The position numbers were made by a program, and so were the translations under genes. Of a stretch of DNA of 64,000 nucleotides, positions 46,621 to 54,394 are shown one piece after another. The notes below the pieces were generated by a model, which was not told the DNA's origin, made no database searches, and was given only the letters and a program-made list of their open reading frames with translations. The stretch's first letter is position 1. Each line of letters begins with the position of its first letter. The DNA is taken from contig NZ_CP054140.1 of NCBI RefSeq assembly GCF_016446285.1, positions 725,501 to 789,500 on the forward strand. The letters are read 5' to 3'. This DNA is from Desulfobulbus oligotrophicus. GTDB taxonomy: Bacteria; Desulfobacterota; Desulfobulbia; Desulfobulbales; Desulfobulbaceae.

Positions 46621-47043
46621 TCAGGTGTCTGCTTTCGATTTCCTGATCGGTTGCTTGCGGCCGTCTTCACCAAGAGCCACATAGGTGATGGCCGCCTCGG
46701 TTACCTTAAAGTTGGTGAACTGGTTCTTGTCGGCATGGAGGATCGGACGAACCCAGACCTCAAGCATGATCGTCACCGAGGTAGTGCCGATGCGTTGCAC
46801 CCTGCCGTAACAGCAGACCACATCCCCCACCCGGACCGGTTTGATGAACTGCATACTTTCCACAGCCACGGTGGCGGTGCGGGTGCGGGTCACCTCTTTG
46901 GCCATCATGCTGCCGGCTAAATCCATCTGCGCCATGATCCAGCCGCCAAAGATATCGCCGTTGAAACTCGTATCTGCGGGCAGGGGCATCGTCCGCAACA
47001 GCAGCTCTCCCTGCGGCCCTGCAACGGCCTGTGTCTGTGTCAT
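46621..47043 (-). CDS. Acyl-CoA thioesterase (hotdog fold, YciA-like)
   Basis: 140-residue hotdog-fold protein: TMPLPADTSFNGDIFGGWIMAQMDLAGSMMA holds the catalytic Asp and the glycine-rich turn of the YciA/acyl-CoA thioesterase group, then VAVESMQFIKPVRVGDVVCCY. It hydrolyses medium- and long-chain acyl-CoAs in the family. The ATG at 47043 is preferred over a GTG at 47049 because AGGAGG is correctly spaced from it. Cytosolic, monocistronic. Confidence 0.88.
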   Translation of the reverse strand: MTQTQAVAGPQGELLLRTMPLPADTSFNGDIFGGWIMAQMDLAGSMMAKEVTRTRTATVAVESMQFIKPVRVGDVVCCYGRVQRIGTTSVTIMLEVWVRPILHADKNQFTNFKVTEAAITYVALGEDGRKQPIRKSKADT

Positions 47044-47157
47044 CTGCACACCTCCTTCTTTCCTGACAGACGGGTTGCTGTTCTATAGTGGATTTTTTGT
47101 GTTTGCGAAACAGGCAAGGTCAGGGAAAATAACTGGTGATGAAAACTCTCCTCTGGC

Positions 47158-47163: not shown

Positions 47164-47213
47164 GGCTCCTCATAACTGAATAAACCGTGCCACAGATGCA
47201 ACAGGAGGATTGT

Positions 47214-47552
47214 ATGCAGATTGAGTGGGCGTACCTGAGAAAAGGCTGAGTCTCAAGCGCCAAGGCACTGGATGTGCTGCAACGGCTTGACCTGCCGATC
47301 AAAGAGAGAATGGATGCCAAAAAAAACACCCTTGCCGCTGAAGATGCCTGGAATCTGCTGCGCACTGCCAGGCAGGTGCTGGTTGCCCGGGGTAAAAACT
47401 TTCAGGTGTTTGCCCCGCAAACCGACAGTAAAGAAGACCTGCTCGCCAAGGCCTTGGGACGGACCGGCAATCTGCGGGCACCAACCATACGAATCAACGA
47501 TGAGATCTGGGTGGGGTTTAGTGAAAGTCTCTACGCCCGTCTACCGGGGTGA
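47214..47552 (+). CDS. ArsC-like selenoprotein with in-frame UGA (Sec12)
   Basis: 112-residue protein if TGA at 47247-47249 is read as selenocysteine. ATG 47214 has an ideal AGGAGG five bases upstream and reads MQIEWAYLRKG-U-VSSAKALDVL, then continues in frame as LQRLDLPIKERMDAKKNTLA through GRTGNLRAPTIRINDEIWVG. The fold pattern is the thioredoxin-like ArsC/Spx family, where a CxxS or UxxS motif sits after the first strand; an ArsC family (seleno)protein group with just this arrangement is known. A hairpin with a UGGAU loop follows the UGA at a suitable distance. The stop overlaps the bioF region. A gene finder ignoring Sec would start at a later codon and lose the active site. Redox function is inferred. 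Confidence 0.78.
47254..47289 (+). promoter_or_regulatory. Candidate bacterial SECIS element
   Basis: Directly after the UGA, CAAG (47254-47257) pairs with CTTG (47286-47289), and GCAC (47265-47268) pairs with GTGC (47274-47277), closing a TGGAT loop. The loop begins 19 bases after the UGA and holds the GG found in bacterial SECIS loops. Fold drawn by eye. Confidence 0.55.
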
Positions 47553-47557
47553 CAACA

Positions 47558-48739
47558 ATGGCTGATCTGTATCAACAGCTCGCCGGTGAACTCCACAAAA
47601 TTGACCAGCAGGGGCAGTTGCGCAACCTTGTTACAGTCACCCACCATGACCGTGGTGAAATAGAGATAGCCGGTCATCGTTACCTTAATCTGGCGGGCAA
47701 CGATTATCTGGGTCTGGCGGCCAACCGGGCAATGATTGCCGGTTTTTATGCAGAGCAGAACCGTCAGAATCTGCTGGAATGCTACGGGCTCGGCAGTACC
47801 GCCTCACGACTGATGACCGGCAGCACAAAACCCTACGCCCGGCTCGAACAGCAGTTGTGCACACTGTACGGTACCGAGGCCGCCCTTGTCTTCAACTCCG
47901 GGTATCATCTCAACATCGGTATTCTGCCGGCGCTGGCCGGCAAGCAGGACCTCATCCTGGCCGACAAACTCTGTCACGCCAGCCTGATTGACGGCATGCG
48001 GTTGTCACCGGCCAGGCTCATCCGTTACCCTCACCTTGACTATGCCGCCATTGAGGATCTGCTCTCTCGCCATCGGGACAAATATCGCCGGATTTTCATT
48101 GTCACGGAATCGATTTTCAGTATGGATGGTGACACAGCCGACCTAGCTGAGCTGGTTCGCCTTAAAGACCGCTGGCAGGCGGTGCTCTATGTTGACGATG
48201 CCCATGGCGTTGGTATCCGGGGGGCAACCGGGTGCGGGCTGGCAGAGGAGATGGGGGTGCTTGACCGGATAGAGATCCTGACCGGTACCTTTGGCAAGGC
48301 CTTTGGCGGACAGGGTGCCTTTGTGGTCGGTACCCGGGTTCTGATCGACTATCTGCTCAACACGGCCAGGTCACAGATCTTCACCACCGGGCTGCCGCCT
48401 GTTTCCGTACACTGGCTGTGCACGGTACTGCAGCAGATGCCGCAGATGCAGGCCCAGCGGACCGGGGTTGCCGAGCTGGCCGATCGCCTTCGCGAGGCAT
48501 TGCGAGCAGAAGGACTACGAACCCATGGCAGCAGTAATATCGTGCCGGTGCTCATCGGTGATGCCGCCACAGCAGTGGCCGCAGCCGAGCGTATCTGTGC
48601 GGCCGGATACTGGGTCAAGGCAGTGCGACCACCGACAGTGCCTGCAGGCACATCTCGCTTGCGGCTCTCGTTGAATGCGGCCATGGCGTGGGAACAGCTG
48701 GCACCGTTACCCGGTCTTATTAAAGCAGCACTTACCTAG
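47558..48739 (+). CDS. bioF: 8-amino-7-oxononanoate synthase
   Basis: 393-residue PLP enzyme that condenses pimeloyl-thioester with alanine in biotin synthesis. Marks are NDYLGLAANRAM at the N-terminus, GSTASRLMTGSTKPYARLEQ, the Asp-His pair in YVDDAHGVGIRG and the PLP Lys in LTGTFGKAFGGQGAF. Full length. The ATG at 47558 follows GGGGTGA; a GTG at 47549 is an alternative start that would overlap the selenoprotein stop. It is followed directly by bioG. Confidence 0.93.
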   Translation: MADLYQQLAGELHKIDQQGQLRNLVTVTHHDRGEIEIAGHRYLNLAGNDYLGLAANRAMIAGFYAEQNRQNLLECYGLGSTASRLMTGSTKPYARLEQQLCTLYGTEAALVFNSGYHLNIGILPALAGKQDLILADKLCHASLIDGMRLSPARLIRYPHLDYAAIEDLLSRHRDKYRRIFIVTESIFSMDGDTADLAELVRLKDRWQAVLYVDDAHGVGIRGATGCGLAEEMGVLDRIEILTGTFGKAFGGQGAFVVGTRVLIDYLLNTARSQIFTTGLPPVSVHWLCTVLQQMPQMQAQRTGVAELADRLREALRAEGLRTHGSSNIVPVLIGDAATAVAAAERICAAGYWVKAVRPPTVPAGTSRLRLSLNAAMAWEQLAPLPGLIKAALT

Positions 48740-48754
48740 AGCGGATATACACCC

Positions 48755-49414
48755 ATGCAAACCATCTGGCTGCAGCAGCACTGTCACCGGGAATGCATCC
48801 TTTTTTTTAACGGCTGGGGCATGGATCAAACCCCGTTTCACACTCTGCCCGCCACCCGTCACGACCTGTGCATGGTCATCGATTACCGCACACTGCCACC
48901 CATTGATCTCCAGATGTTTGCCGACTATCACCGGCTGCACCTCGTTGCCTGGTCCATGGGTGTCTGGGCGGCTGCCCATCTCCTGGCCGGGCAGGCGGAC
49001 CGTTTCACCACCAGCACCGCCATTGGCGGTACGCTCACGCCGATCGATAACCAGCGCGGTATTCCGGCGGAGAGCTATAACGCCATGCTCGACCACTTTA
49101 CCGCTGACACTGTCGAGCATTTTTACAGCAGCATGTTTGACAGCCACGAACAGCTGACCACCTTTCTGGAAAACCGGCCTCAACGACCGCTGAACGAACT
49201 CCGGGAAGAACTGGCCGCATTCCGGGACGCTGCCCTTGATGCAGGCCCGGCCCGCAACATGTACTCTCGAAAAATTATCACCAGTCGCGACCGTATCTTT
49301 TCAGCCCGCAATCAACGGCGTGCCTGGGGTAAAGACAGTGCCGAAGTTTGCAACTGGCCGCACTTCCCCTTTTATAACCTGACCGACTGGCACCAGCTGC
49401 TCGACACGCCCTGA
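48755..49414 (+). CDS. bioG: Pimeloyl-ACP methyl ester esterase BioG (DUF452)
   Basis: 219-residue alpha/beta hydrolase of the DUF452/BioG group: ILFFNGWGMDQTPFH (oxyanion region), nucleophile elbow HLVAWSMGVWAAAHLL with the catalytic Ser, and the C-terminal His in WPHFPFYNL. BioG removes the methyl group from pimeloyl-ACP ester and so ends chain elongation before BioF acts. It starts 15 bases after bioF. No bioC methyltransferase follows; instead the restriction island begins, so the biotin operon may have been split or bioC lies elsewhere. Confidence 0.87.
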   Translation: MQTIWLQQHCHRECILFFNGWGMDQTPFHTLPATRHDLCMVIDYRTLPPIDLQMFADYHRLHLVAWSMGVWAAAHLLAGQADRFTTSTAIGGTLTPIDNQRGIPAESYNAMLDHFTADTVEHFYSSMFDSHEQLTTFLENRPQRPLNELREELAAFRDAALDAGPARNMYSRKIITSRDRIFSARNQRRAWGKDSAEVCNWPHFPFYNLTDWHQLLDTP

Positions 49415-49649: not shown

Positions 49650-52600
49650 TCACGTCTTCGGATGAACAATACTGCCTTGCGGTCCACTCAGCCGGTCATA
49701 AACCTGGCTGCCCAGCCATTTGGAGACCACATCCTGGAGTTCCGGTTTGCTCATGTAGTCGGTAAACAGCTCCTCGTTGAGTTCCATACGCTCGATGAAC
49801 AGCGATTCCAGCACCTGGCGAAAGACCAGTTGAAACTTGTCAAGGGAGTTCACTTCGGCTGCCTGGCGCAAGGATTCGTTCCGGCTGGCGGCCTCGGCGA
49901 TCTGATCGAAGAAAAGCTGATCCGCTTCACTCAACTCAGCGCCGAAACGTTCGTTGATGATATCTATAAGGCGGGAGAGCGTTACGTACTGCTCATGATT
50001 TTCCGCAGTGCCAACCTCGCGCGGTCCGTCGAGCGGCCTGGCATACCCCTCAGCCAGGTTGATCGAGCCTTCGCTGATCTTCTGCAGCCGATAGTAGTCA
50101 AGCTCAACTTCCTCATCAAAATGGTATCCCGGTCCGGTCTTACGCCTGGGTAGTTTCAAGACCAGGTAGCGCAGATACGTATAGAGCTTTTCCAGATCAC
50201 TGTCCTGATAGGGGATGACCTGGCTCAAAAAGCTGTAGAGAGTGCGAAACGCCCGGGTTTTGCCGCGCCACAACTCGGCCTCTTCCTCTTCATCATTTTG
50301 CAGCTGGACAAAACGGGCCACAGCCTGATCAAGCAGGGCGTTCAGATTCTTATGATCAGTCGGGCTCTGGCGACGTTTGGGCGCAAAGAAGATACGTGAA
50401 AATTCATCCACCTCATCTTGCAGGTAGATGCCTGACCCGTCCAGCTCGGCCTGCACCTTATACATTCGATCCGGATCAACTTCTTCGCCCATGACCGAAC
50501 CGTCGTAATACTGACGAAACGCCTCCTGAATCTCGGCCGGGTCGTTGACAAAGTCGAGCACAAAGGTGTCGTCTTTCAGCGGATGGGTGCGGTTCAGACG
50601 CGACAGGGTCTGCACCGCCTGGATCCCGGCCAATCGCTTGTCCACATACATGGTGTGCAGCAGCGGCTGGTCAAAGCCGGTCTGGTACTTCTCCGCCACC
50701 AGCAGCACCTGGTAGTCGGGTTTAGCAAAGGTGCTTGGCAGTTCCTTTTCCTTCAAGCCGTGATTCATCTCGACTTCGGTGTAGGTTTTCTCCGGCAGCT
50801 TGTCGTCTTCCACTGTGCCGGAAAAGGCCACCAGGCTTTTGATGGGATAGCCCTTTTCGCTGATGGTGCGATCGAATTCCTGTTTGTAACGCACTGCCTC
50901 CAGCCGCGAGCCGGTGACCACCATGGCCTTGGCCTGACCACCGATCTTGTGGCGGGTGTGTTGCTGGAAATGCTCGACCATCACTTCAGTCTTTTGACCG
51001 ATATTGTGCGGATGCAGACGCATGAAACGCGCCAAAGCCCGGGCTGCCTTTTTACGTTCAACGTTAGGGTCATCCTCAGCCTTTTTAATCAGTCTGTAGT
51101 AAGTCTTATAGCTGACATAGTTTTTCAGCACATCCTCGATAAAGCCCTCTTCAATGGCCTGGCGCATGGTGTAGCGATGAAATGGTTCGCTGCCCCGACC
51201 AAAGATTGCCAGCGTCTTGTGCTTGGGCGTGGCGGTAAAGGCAAAAAAACTCATGTTGGGCTGGCGGCCGCGCTTGGCCATGGTCCGAAACAGCCGTTCC
51301 AGCTCTTCTTCACCTTCTTCCTGGGCTGCCTCCCTGGCCTTGCGGATCAATTCCATACCACCCAGCACACCTTTCAGCTCGGTGGCGGTCTCCCCTGACT
51401 GGGAACTGTGGGCCTCGTCAATGATCACCGCGTATTTGCTTGTGGGCAGATGGCTGCTGCCCTCGCCTCGCTCCTCGGCCAGTTTCATCAGTTGCCCGGA
51501 AACAAAGGGAAACTTCTGCAAGGTGGTGATGATGATCGGCACGCCCGACTCCAGGGCCTCGGCCAGTTGGCGCGAATCCTCATCAATCTTCTGCACCACC
51601 CCCTGGCGATGATCGAACTGATAAATGGTGTTCTGCAGCTGCCGGTCAAGCACCACCCGGTCGGTAATCACCACCACGCTGTCGAAAATGCGTTCGTCCT
51701 CACTGCTGTGCAGGGAGGAGAGCCGGTGGGCCAGCCAGCCGATGGTGTAGCTTTTGCCGCTGCCTGCCGAGTGTTCCACCAGATAGTTATGCCCCACGCC
51801 CTCGCAGCCCGCCGCTGTAACCATCTGCCGTACGGCCTGCAACTGGTGGTAGCGGGGAAAGATCATGGTCTCCTTGCGCACCTTTTTGCCCTGATCGCTG
51901 ACCTTCTCATCGATATCCAGATGGAGAAAGCGGGCCAGCAGATCCAGCAGGCTGTCACGGCTTAACACCTCTTCCCAGAGGTAGGCGGTCTTGTAATTGC
52001 GGCCGTCTTTATCCGGCGGGTTACCTGCACCACTGTCCCAGCCCCTGTTAAAGGGCAGAAAATGGGTGCTGGTCCCGGCCAGGCGGGTGGTCATGTGTGC
52101 CTCTTCGCTATCCACGGCAAAGTGTACCAGGGTGCGTTTGGTAAAGAGGAAGATCGGCTCACGCGGGTCGCGATCATGACGATACTGGTGAATGGCATTG
52201 GCCACTGTCTGTCCGGAAAGGGGATTTTTCAACTCCAGGGTCACCACGGGAATACCGTTGATACTCAGTACCACATCCAGTGATCTTTTGTTTTTACTGC
52301 TGAAATAGAGTTGCCGGGTGATGCCCAGGCGATTGGCACGGTAGTGCGCCTCCAGTTCCGGGTTGAGGCCGTGGGCCGGGCGAAAAAAGGCGATACGCAG
52401 GGTCCTGCCAAAGCACTTGAAACCCTGGCGCAGGGTGGTCAGAACACCGTGGGTATCCAGCCATTTGCAAAGTGCCAAGAGCACCCGCTGGCCGGTTTCA
52501 ACGCCGTGCAGGTCCTCCAGCTTTTCCCAGGTTTTGTCCTGGGTTGCACGGATAAACGCCAAGGCCTCATCAGGGAAGATGGCCCGCTCGGTGTCAAAAG

Positions 52601-52685
52601 CACCTGAGTCGAGTTTGCTGTAACCATCAGCCAGTAAGACTTTCTCAATGGCGGTTTCAAAAGCAGCTTCGGAGGTGGGTTTCAT
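49650..52685 (-). CDS. hsdR: Type I restriction enzyme, R subunit
   Basis: 1011-residue restriction and translocase subunit. The N-terminal nuclease has the PD-(D/E)xK core with VVLSINGIPVVTLELKNP (Glu-x-Lys). It is followed by an SF2 motor with Walker A HSAGSGKSYTIGWLA, DEAH box VIIDEAHSSQSG, FFAFTATPKHKTL and a second RecA-like fold ending in AVQTLSRLNRTHPLKDDTFVLDF (motif VI region). The C-terminal helical part contacts the methylase. The start at 52685 forms ATGA with the stop of the OLD-type ATPase gene, so it is coupled to it. It is the last gene of the island operon. Confidence 0.94.
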   Translation of the reverse strand: MKPTSEAAFETAIEKVLLADGYSKLDSGAFDTERAIFPDEALAFIRATQDKTWEKLEDLHGVETGQRVLLALCKWLDTHGVLTTLRQGFKCFGRTLRIAFFRPAHGLNPELEAHYRANRLGITRQLYFSSKNKRSLDVVLSINGIPVVTLELKNPLSGQTVANAIHQYRHDRDPREPIFLFTKRTLVHFAVDSEEAHMTTRLAGTSTHFLPFNRGWDSGAGNPPDKDGRNYKTAYLWEEVLSRDSLLDLLARFLHLDIDEKVSDQGKKVRKETMIFPRYHQLQAVRQMVTAAGCEGVGHNYLVEHSAGSGKSYTIGWLAHRLSSLHSSEDERIFDSVVVITDRVVLDRQLQNTIYQFDHRQGVVQKIDEDSRQLAEALESGVPIIITTLQKFPFVSGQLMKLAEERGEGSSHLPTSKYAVIIDEAHSSQSGETATELKGVLGGMELIRKAREAAQEEGEEELERLFRTMAKRGRQPNMSFFAFTATPKHKTLAIFGRGSEPFHRYTMRQAIEEGFIEDVLKNYVSYKTYYRLIKKAEDDPNVERKKAARALARFMRLHPHNIGQKTEVMVEHFQQHTRHKIGGQAKAMVVTGSRLEAVRYKQEFDRTISEKGYPIKSLVAFSGTVEDDKLPEKTYTEVEMNHGLKEKELPSTFAKPDYQVLLVAEKYQTGFDQPLLHTMYVDKRLAGIQAVQTLSRLNRTHPLKDDTFVLDFVNDPAEIQEAFRQYYDGSVMGEEVDPDRMYKVQAELDGSGIYLQDEVDEFSRIFFAPKRRQSPTDHKNLNALLDQAVARFVQLQNDEEEEAELWRGKTRAFRTLYSFLSQVIPYQDSDLEKLYTYLRYLVLKLPRRKTGPGYHFDEEVELDYYRLQKISEGSINLAEGYARPLDGPREVGTAENHEQYVTLSRLIDIINERFGAELSEADQLFFDQIAEAASRNESLRQAAEVNSLDKFQLVFRQVLESLFIERMELNEELFTDYMSKPELQDVVSKWLGSQVYDRLSGPQGSIVHPKT

Positions 52686-54394
52686 GGCTTGCCTTTCTGC
52701 ACAGTGAAACAAGATTGCACCAGATCGCAGAAGTTTTTCAACTTGTCATCCGCAATTTGATTAGCGGCGTAGCAGTAAAGCAGGTGCTGGGGCTTCCTGT
52801 GTGGTGAGCCTGGTGGAGTGACATTCAGAGCTGTTTCAAGGTCCTTCTGGATCGTTACAATCGCATTGGTGAAGTGATCGTGCTTTGAGTCGGATATAAG
52901 CTGGTTCAATTCCTGATGTTCGTTCTTGTTTTCATCGTCATCATGAAGAACAGCATGAGTGACACCAAGCGCACTTAGCAAACTCATGAAGCGATGGATG
53001 TTGTATTTCCCCAGGCAGTCCAAGACATAAGTCCCCTGCGGAATCACCAATTTCGAATCATCCAGCAATCGGTTGATTAGCGCCGTCTCGCTAGGACCTT
53101 CCACTAACAAGACTTTTTGAGCAAAAAACAACCCAGCACGATCAGGATTCAGCCAAAGAAAATATTTGACTGCTTCCATTTCAGGCTTGAGGTCATCGGC
53201 CTGCATATTTTTTTTGACTTTGGAATATTTGTCGGCGACTTTTTCAATAGCCTTATTTGCATCAATAATGTCATCCCACTGATCTTGGCCTACCTGGAAC
53301 GTCGAGACGATGCCGTTAATCCGCTGGGCTCTAATGATGGCCGGAATTCGAATGGCGTTTCTGCTCACAAAATGTGCAGAGTGAGTAGAACAAACAATCT
53401 GCCAATCTTCAGTTTCACTCACCTTAATTAGACTTCTGGCAAGGTCGTCCTGTTGCGGCGGGTGCAAAAACGCTTCCGGTTCTTCGAATAGAACAAGGTT
53501 GAGCGAGGGGGTGAAATCTTTGGCCTTCTTTGAAGTCTTTTGAGGCACATACTTTGCGCCGAGCTGAATCAGAGAATAGATGAAATGCCGCTGGAATCCA
53601 GAGCCGAAATATTCAACACCTTGGGACTTTTCATGGTAATTGTCCCGGATGTCCCATCCAAGCATGGATTTGATGATCTCCGCCGTGGATGGAGTGGTGA
53701 ACTTTAGGTTGAAGTTGGTCTGCCACGGCGCAAGCAGCTCGTTCAAGTCGTTCTCGAAATTTGAAAGGGATCGATTGTCCTCTGTTTCTACAGATCGAAC
53801 ACTTCCCGCAAATGTGGTGACGCTTTCCGTCAGCGCTTTATATGCCTCGCTCTTCTCGACGACATCCGACATGATGTTGGTGATCAGGTCGCGCAGAGCT
53901 GACGGGCCGCTGAGCTTGGTGTGTTCATCAACCTTGCTAATGGCAGGGATATATATGAGATCGCCAAATTTGCCGCTCTGAACATTCTTGGCGCCGTAAA
54001 ACGGCTCCTTCGACAAGGTGTCGTCGGACTTGTATCCAACAATTGATCCTGTGGCATTCTTGCCATCGTGTAACCTCTCTGACGTTTGGAAATATTTTCT
54101 GACTTTCAGGTCTTTATTGGCCGTTTTGTATTCATCTTTCAGGGAATCGTGCTCCTGATCGCTCAATGCAAAGGTCAGCTCAACCCATGACTCCTGATCA
54201 GCAGCACCTTTAAAAGGAAAGTCACAATCTTTTTTGAATTTGAAACCGTCTTTCTCATAAAAAGCCCGGATGCCATCAATGATGGTGCTCTTTCCGGCAT
54301 TATTCGCGCCAACCAAAAGGCCGTAAGAATGCAAATTCATCGACGCATCAAGTATGCCACGGAAATTGTGAATGGTGACATGAGTAAGTTTCAT
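52682..54394 (-). CDS. OLD-type ATPase/TOPRIM endonuclease embedded in the type I operon
   Basis: 570-residue ATPase of the OLD/RecF-like ABC group. Walker A GANNAGKSTIIDGI lies at about 33-46, the signature-like region is GVEYFGSGFQRHFIYSL, and the Walker B region is LNLVLFEEPEAFLHPPQQ, followed by the H loop CSTHSAHFVSR. From about 415 a TOPRIM domain begins (KVLLVEGPSETALINRLL) with DxD in AVLHDDDENKNE. OLD proteins nick or cut DNA and act in phage defence. It lies between hsdS and hsdR with four-base overlaps at both ends. The gene appears more AT-rich than hsdM and hsdR. Whether it modulates the restriction enzyme or acts alone is unknown. Confidence 0.85.
   Translation of the reverse strand: MKLTHVTIHNFRGILDASMNLHSYGLLVGANNAGKSTIIDGIRAFYEKDGFKFKKDCDFPFKGAADQESWVELTFALSDQEHDSLKDEYKTANKDLKVRKYFQTSERLHDGKNATGSIVGYKSDDTLSKEPFYGAKNVQSGKFGDLIYIPAISKVDEHTKLSGPSALRDLITNIMSDVVEKSEAYKALTESVTTFAGSVRSVETEDNRSLSNFENDLNELLAPWQTNFNLKFTTPSTAEIIKSMLGWDIRDNYHEKSQGVEYFGSGFQRHFIYSLIQLGAKYVPQKTSKKAKDFTPSLNLVLFEEPEAFLHPPQQDDLARSLIKVSETEDWQIVCSTHSAHFVSRNAIRIPAIIRAQRINGIVSTFQVGQDQWDDIIDANKAIEKVADKYSKVKKNMQADDLKPEMEAVKYFLWLNPDRAGLFFAQKVLLVEGPSETALINRLLDDSKLVIPQGTYVLDCLGKYNIHRFMSLLSALGVTHAVLHDDDENKNEHQELNQLISDSKHDHFTNAIVTIQKDLETALNVTPPGSPHRKPQHLLYCYAANQIADDKLKNFCDLVQSCFTVQKGKP

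Follow-up and report, generated by a model that had tools for sequence, protein, structure and literature searches.

The window analysed here is a stretch of 64,000 nts from Desulfobulbus oligotrophicus, in which a small gene with an in-frame TGA lies between a divergently transcribed thioesterase gene and two genes of biotin synthesis (Table 1). As the preliminary description had noted, a ribosome site and ATG are followed after 11 of the 112 codons by TGA, and the same frame then stays open for 100 codons up to the next TGA. When the first TGA is read through, the N-terminus is MQIEWAYLRKG-U-VSS. The only standard ORF (genetic code table 11) in this frame starts at GTG 47274 and encodes 92 residues, missing 20 of the 112 codons; the earlier statement that conventional gene calling would discard the first third was therefore overstated. 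A scan of the whole window for ORFs with UGA read-through gave 252 candidates, and a promoter scan upstream of the selenoprotein gene found no sigma-70-type site. On the opposite strand, an HsdR-like type I restriction subunit gene (49650-52712; TIGR00348, 211.3 bits, cut-off 284.55) is placed tail-to-tail with bioG.

Table 1. Coordinates of the genes and sequence features at the locus (window numbering)
Feature	Position	Strand	Details	Basis
YciA-like acyl-CoA thioesterase gene	46621..47049	-	divergent upstream neighbour	NF007970, 153.6 bits (cut-off 162)
Shine-Dalgarno-like AGGAGG	47203..47208	+	5 nt upstream of ATG 47214	sequence reading
ArsC/Spx-like selenoprotein gene	47214..47552	+	112 residues, Sec12, stop TGA 47550-47552	family model, conservation, predicted fold
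In-frame UGA	47247..47249	+	codon 12, putative Sec	one TGA at 53/53 places in the host family; TGT in L152 and L173
Possible lower SECIS helix	47253..47290	+	47253-47258 with 47285-47290	single-sequence fold alone
Codon 15 (AGC)	47256..47258	+	Ser	Cys in 105/108 Sec homologues
Apical hairpin, putative bacterial SECIS	47264..47278	+	5-bp stem 47264-47268/47274-47278, loop UGGAU 47269-47273	
bioF-like gene (8-amino-7-oxononanoate synthase)	47549..48739	+		TIGR00858, 422.2 bits, just below the cut-off of 426.45
bioG (pimeloyl-ACP methyl esterase)	48755..49414	+		PF04301, 104.4 bits (cut-off 27)

A search of the translated product against NCBIfam, proposed in the preliminary description, returned the curated family NF041106 (ArsC_rel_Se_1, "ArsC family (seleno)protein") with a score of 109.3 bits (cut-off 85), residues 3-107 of the protein being aligned to profile positions 1-107 (the full 107). 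The gene is thus not hidden in the sense first supposed, since annotation that uses this model would find it. Homologous genes were present in 52 of 73 genomes of the host family (its own included) at 53 places, all 53 with exactly one in-frame TGA. In a sample of 395 genomes from the phylum, 36 genomes yielded a match at E 0.001; each of the 28 above the cut-off contained one TGA (seven of these 28 genomes also belong to the 73-genome set), and among the eight weaker matches below the cut-off five had a TGA and three lacked any stop. A scan of named genomes detected at least 573 relatives, of which the best 80 were kept, so that the counts for these 80 and for the 110 distinct loci below describe a near-relative sample. 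Among these best 80, 77 could be parsed (all except L163, L172, and L177): 74 combine UGA with Cys at position +3, one combines UGA with Ser, and two (L152 and L173) have TGT, encoding Cys, at the UGA site followed by Cys. A Cys aligned with UGA is the classic sign of a Sec site. In the tree, L152 and L173 form one group nested among Sec-containing forms, and given this placement they are likely to represent Sec-to-Cys reversion. Both carry the motif CASC and are located upstream of ComM-like genes. Moreover, ahead of the UGA, all 46 proteins that were aligned share W5, A6, Y7, R9, K10, and G11, so that conservation is found on both sides of the codon and does not begin only after it.

The Sec machinery, whose absence would have spoken against the gene, is complete in the host genome (one contig of 3.1 Mb). 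The selC gene scored 71.5 bits, above the cut-off, and was identified by ARAGORN as tRNA-SeC with the anticodon tca; other tRNA-Sec matches in this genome are below the cut-off and are probably ordinary tRNAs. The selB (347.7), selA (619.2), and selD (361.5) genes each exceeded the curated cut-off. The host selD gene (L018 1501-2442) contains one in-frame TGA near its start (AAGUAAKLGPGDL), and SelD itself is apparently a selenoprotein. Across the 73 genomes, the association between selA and the NF041106 gene is weak (45 with both, 14 with selA only, seven with the gene only, seven with neither; Fisher p 0.096). The seven gene-only genomes are drafts with a completeness of 56-93%; L063, the nearest relative of the window's gene, comes from one of these drafts (G024). 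All five genomes of one genus (g11) lack both selA and the gene, three of the five having a strong bioF-like match, and no Cys version of the gene was found in these five genomes. Counter to a simple rule linking selA and the gene, another genus (g12) has selA in all eight genomes and the gene in only two.

Further examination of the region downstream of the UGA confirmed the hairpin with a UGGAU loop that had been reported previously (Table 1). Taken alone, the window's hairpin is no better than chance when compared with dinucleotide shuffles (z -0.41), and an equally stable fold is reached by 6.5% of synonymous recodings, so the case for a SECIS element at this locus comes from the family. 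In the 108 genes obtained by removing the two Cys loci from a set of 110 distinct loci, the real 24-nt stretch was more stable than the average synonymous recoding in 98% of cases (mean z -1.55), whereas mean z values lay between -0.23 and +0.04 in five control stretches taken from these genes; 36 of the 108 genes were individually at or below 5%. In the folding check advised at the outset, the hairpin forms but is not significant by itself; the family-wide test supports it as a putative SECIS element. Codon 18, which encodes Ala in all 68 genes compared, is GCA in 51 of them versus 108 of 625 Ala codons later in the genes, and codon 21, where it encodes Val, is GTG in 52 of 53 cases versus 125 of 398 Val codons later on. 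Together, these two codons build the stem GCAC...GUGY, which encloses a loop of AGGCU, AGGAU, AGGUU, or similar. In 57 of the 108 genes, all four pairs of exactly this stem can form; the other 51 have fewer, and some of these appear to pair with a shift of two bases downstream. Codon choice after the UGA thus shows the constraint that a SECIS hairpin would impose. Rfam returned only a chance-level snoRNA and no SECIS match in this region, for which its library may lack a suitable model, and no match at the gathering score in the whole window. Nine loci outside the strict sequence pattern (L034, L087, L102, L107, L108, L110, L111, L119, and L120) were excluded from the sets of 68 and 110. A looser pattern read six of them (five distinct proteins, L087 being a second copy of L034), all of which have UxxC, and the L034 protein enters the 110-locus set via L150; L110, L119, and L120 were unread, the latter two being below the family cut-off.

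The family model, the selABCD genes, the conserved UGA, the Cys-containing homologs, and the codon constraint all agree with the original reading of this gene as a selenoprotein gene, and codon 12 of 47214-47552 is almost certainly decoded as Sec.

The window's protein is an exception to the UxxC motif and is filed in NF041106 by its curated score. Among the 110 distinct loci, 105 have UxxC, three have UxxS, and two have CxxC. The three UxxS proteins are that of the window (UVSS), that of L063 (81% identical to it), and that of L127 from Desulfobulbus sp. Emb289P4bin76, and none of the three contains a Cys anywhere. A sequencing error is unlikely because UxxS occurs in three genomes. The Ser is encoded by AGC, AGT, and TCC; AGC and AGT are each one first-base change away from a Cys codon, and TCC is one second-base change away. 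Well-supported branches of the tree require two separate changes between UxxC and UxxS, so the resolving Cys has been lost at least twice with Sec retained. In the literature searched, chiefly open-licence papers and as far as their available text goes, no report of the loss of the +3 Cys in NF041106 was found. These variants are natural one-selenol forms beside two-residue relatives and could show whether the resolving Cys matters.

The preliminary description had the frame end just before bioF and considered a place at the head of a biotin operon odd. The gene does adjoin bioF; in fact, the GTG start of bioF overlaps its stop by 4 nt (GTGA, 47549-47552), with ATG 47558 as an alternative start. 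The position also stands, but it is the rule rather than an oddity in the host family, since 48 of the 52 genomes that have the selenoprotein gene carry bioF directly downstream of it in the same orientation. The exceptions are G038 and G048, which have no strong bioF match (completeness 85% and 90%), G065, whose copies are elsewhere, and G030, where the contig ends. G065 has two diverged copies (L051 and L073), and its strong bioF match is on a different contig. The tally in the 73 genomes counts strong matches only, none of which reaches the TIGR00858 cut-off of 426.45 (best 426.3), so the identity of bioF rests on near-cut-off scores together with its bioG and bioC neighbours. Downstream of the 110 loci, bioF was found at 49 (by tblastn), bioG at 45, and bioC at 13; the commonest upstream neighbour tested was the thioesterase (19 loci). 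A simple ORF caller recovered bioF at only 38 of the 110, perhaps because long antisense ORFs displaced genes. For the 40 of 49 linked loci with an assigned bioF start, the median gap to the selenoprotein gene is +3 nt and nine loci, including the window, have -4, although at least two values (-337 and -217) reflect wrong start choices. A bioC-like gene was not detected in the neighbourhood of the window's copy, and the host bioB is far off (C1:1332298-1333185). In the tree, all 49 bioF-linked loci are in one clade of 56 rows, with at least six label changes; of its other seven rows, six have no bioF nearby and one (L125) is at a contig end.

Such a linkage would be explained if the protein had a dedicated accessory role in biotin synthesis, with a step or substrate of BioF, BioG, or BioC as its target, and both the 48 of 52 family genomes with bioF next to the gene and the prevalence of bioF, bioG, and bioC over the upstream thioesterase among the 110 loci are in favour of it. 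We nevertheless consider this explanation unlikely. In twelve of the 73 family genomes, a strong bioF-like match occurs without an NF041106 gene, which indicates that the selenoprotein is dispensable for biotin synthesis as such, G038 and G048 have the gene with no strong bioF match, and outside the one clade the gene sits elsewhere, so that the linkage may be inherited co-regulation only. A related idea concerns the UGA itself. Stop-start overlaps such as GTGA are a typical arrangement for translational coupling, and given this overlap the translation of bioF could depend on UGA decoding. It is conceivable, though rather improbable, that in Desulfobulbaceae the supply of selenium gates biotin synthesis, the UGA being both the active-site codon and an operon attenuator. 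Were a ribosome to halt at codon 12, about 300 nt would go untranslated and the coupled bioF-bioG genes would be deprived of translation, and only a Sec-decoding ribosome would reach bioF, which the selenoprotein gene overlaps or abuts; the protein, with its lone selenol in the UxxS lineages, may itself serve the biotin pathway. With the bioF linkage retained for so long, a link between selenium and biotin in sulfur bacteria becomes open to testing; no paper on the biotin-operon position or on such a link was found in the open-licence literature searched.

Outside the bioF clade, the gene occurs in several other contexts. Eight loci have a pyridine-nucleotide oxidoreductase gene upstream (249.8 bits to TIGR03169, cut-off 310; of the kind found N-terminal to SelD) and a rhodanese-rubrerythrin fusion gene downstream, and four of these eight also have a Fur/PerR-family regulator. 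A rubrerythrin and a peroxiredoxin-like gene are near L151, and further neighbours include topoisomerase subunit A with NFACT, a class-III aminotransferase, and a ComM-like gene. This variety of neighbours suggests that the gene encodes a general thiol/selenol redox protein, which may have links to peroxide stress and to sulfur or selenium transfer and which, in a single lineage, came to head the biotin operon and has mostly stayed in that position. In Desulfocapsa-like genomes, a TGA occupies the active-site position of the rhodanese part (YURSG) in the rhodanese-rubrerythrin gene directly downstream at eight of 14 loci: L160 (4336-5139), L159, L161, L165, L169, L174, L185, and L157. Two selenoprotein genes apparently occur in tandem there. 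In five of these eight (L159, L160, L165, L169, and L174), the fusion gene is preceded by the NF041106 gene with a stop-to-start overlap at the same position. Rhodanese selenoproteins with UxxG are listed in a 2026 review (PMC13188914).

An AlphaFold2 model of the protein (50 proteins, Cys for Sec) had a pLDDT of 95.6 and a pTM of 0.88, and its predicted fold is Spx/ArsC-like. The best solved matches in Foldseek were Spx proteins (best E 9.6e-5, TM about 0.5). The VIA-align comparison gave Z 9.1 for the Spx structure 3ihq_A (88 residues, 2.7 A, about 20% identity), about 7.7 for arsenate reductases, and about 7 for glutaredoxin-like proteins, values below 8 possibly carrying little meaning according to the notes of the program. 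A profile of 50 sequences matched Spx with E 1.5e-4 and aligned the Sec with the first Cys of the Spx CxxC motif; a single-sequence PDB search gave weak matches alone (Spx E 0.39). The family model, the predicted fold, and this alignment bear out the initial view of an ArsC/Spx-like protein in which Sec replaces the active-site Cys.

Both ArsC and Spx have an Arg directly before a conserved Pro, and in ArsC this Arg is catalytic. In the present family, 50 of 50 proteins have Ala immediately ahead of the conserved Pro90 and the invariant Arg (R88) one place earlier, so that LRRP of Spx is aligned with LRAP of the NF041106 homologs, which points to an active site unlike that of a canonical arsenate reductase. 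In addition, searches up to E 1 returned neither TIGR00014 nor any ArsC model besides NF041106 in NCBIfam, and no ArsC match in Pfam, where only Glutaredoxin appeared (15.7 bits, cut-off 22.9). We therefore regard it as quite unlikely that the protein is an arsenate reductase, whose Sec would attack arsenate and whose As-Se intermediate would be reduced by glutathione/glutaredoxin, even though the fold is ArsC-like, arsenate reductases are among the Foldseek and VIA-align matches, the NCBI family name is "ArsC family (seleno)protein", and a separate Sec-containing arsenate reductase, TIGR00014 with UxxS, appears in a table of PMC13188914. That entry makes Sec and UxxS compatible with such activity, and it also means that UxxS as such is not new. 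It is very unlikely that the protein regulates transcription as Spx does, its selenol serving as the redox switch. Spx proteins are the best fold and profile matches (best profile E 1.5e-4), but these matches are weak, with about 20% identity, and Spx senses through its CxxC pair; most homologs have UxxC, and the window's protein has a single selenol and no Cys. Least credible by far is that the UGA is a true stop behind an 11-codon leader peptide, with the remainder translated from GTG 47274 or belonging to a decaying gene: the 92-aa ORF and the insignificant hairpin of the window fit this, but invariant residues flank the UGA in the 46 aligned proteins, every above-cut-off place in the family and phylum searches has one in-frame TGA, two homologs have TGT at the site, and a start at residue 21 would leave the predicted fold without its first strand and without most of its first helix.

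The protein is most likely, judging from its sequence and relatives, a one-selenol thiol oxidoreductase that is recycled by external thiols. SelB and Sec-tRNA would decode the UGA at codon 12, aided by the hairpin 15-29 nt past it, and the selenoprotein would be made as the first cistron of a co-transcribed bioF-bioG operon. Sec12 is predicted to be just before the first helix, at the place of the first reactive Cys of Spx. Since position +3 is Ser and Cys is absent throughout, its selenol would be the sole thiol-type redox centre of the protein. It would attack a disulfide or a similar oxidised substrate and then be reduced back by an external thiol, as in a monothiol glutaredoxin, with no internal Sec-Cys bond being formed. 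To this explanation as a whole, comprising a SelB-decoded selenoprotein with an Spx/ArsC fold, the lone-selenol monothiol cycle, and the position as first cistron, we assign a probability of about 0.82.

The selenoprotein family is already known, and the window's gene adds one member that is ordinary for it. A paper of 2006 (PMC1794560) already lists ArsC-like selenoproteins, from Desulfotalea psychrophila and Desulfuromonas acetoxidans; they share the family name and come from related sulfur bacteria, and, matched by description, they are likely to belong to NF041106. The 2026 review (PMC13188914) gives "Arsenate reductase-like protein, NF041106, UxxC", and a 2022 review (PMC9312934) contains a corresponding row. 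Compared with the other members of NF041106, the window's protein has the same place of Sec and is likewise a small single domain, but it differs by UVSS and the absence of Cys. The Sec-containing arsenate reductase TIGR00014, as entered in the 2026 table, shares the Sec and the Ser at +3 but is described by a different model, to which the window's protein has no match up to E 1. Arsenate reductases (3f0i and 3rdw) have the fold class in common (Z 7.7), whereas the window's family has Ala before the Pro and no Pfam ArsC match. Spx proteins (3ihq, 3gfk, and 1z3e) are alike in predicted fold and align their first Cys with the Sec, but they are only about 20% identical to the window's protein, which has Sec in place of this Cys and Ser at +3.
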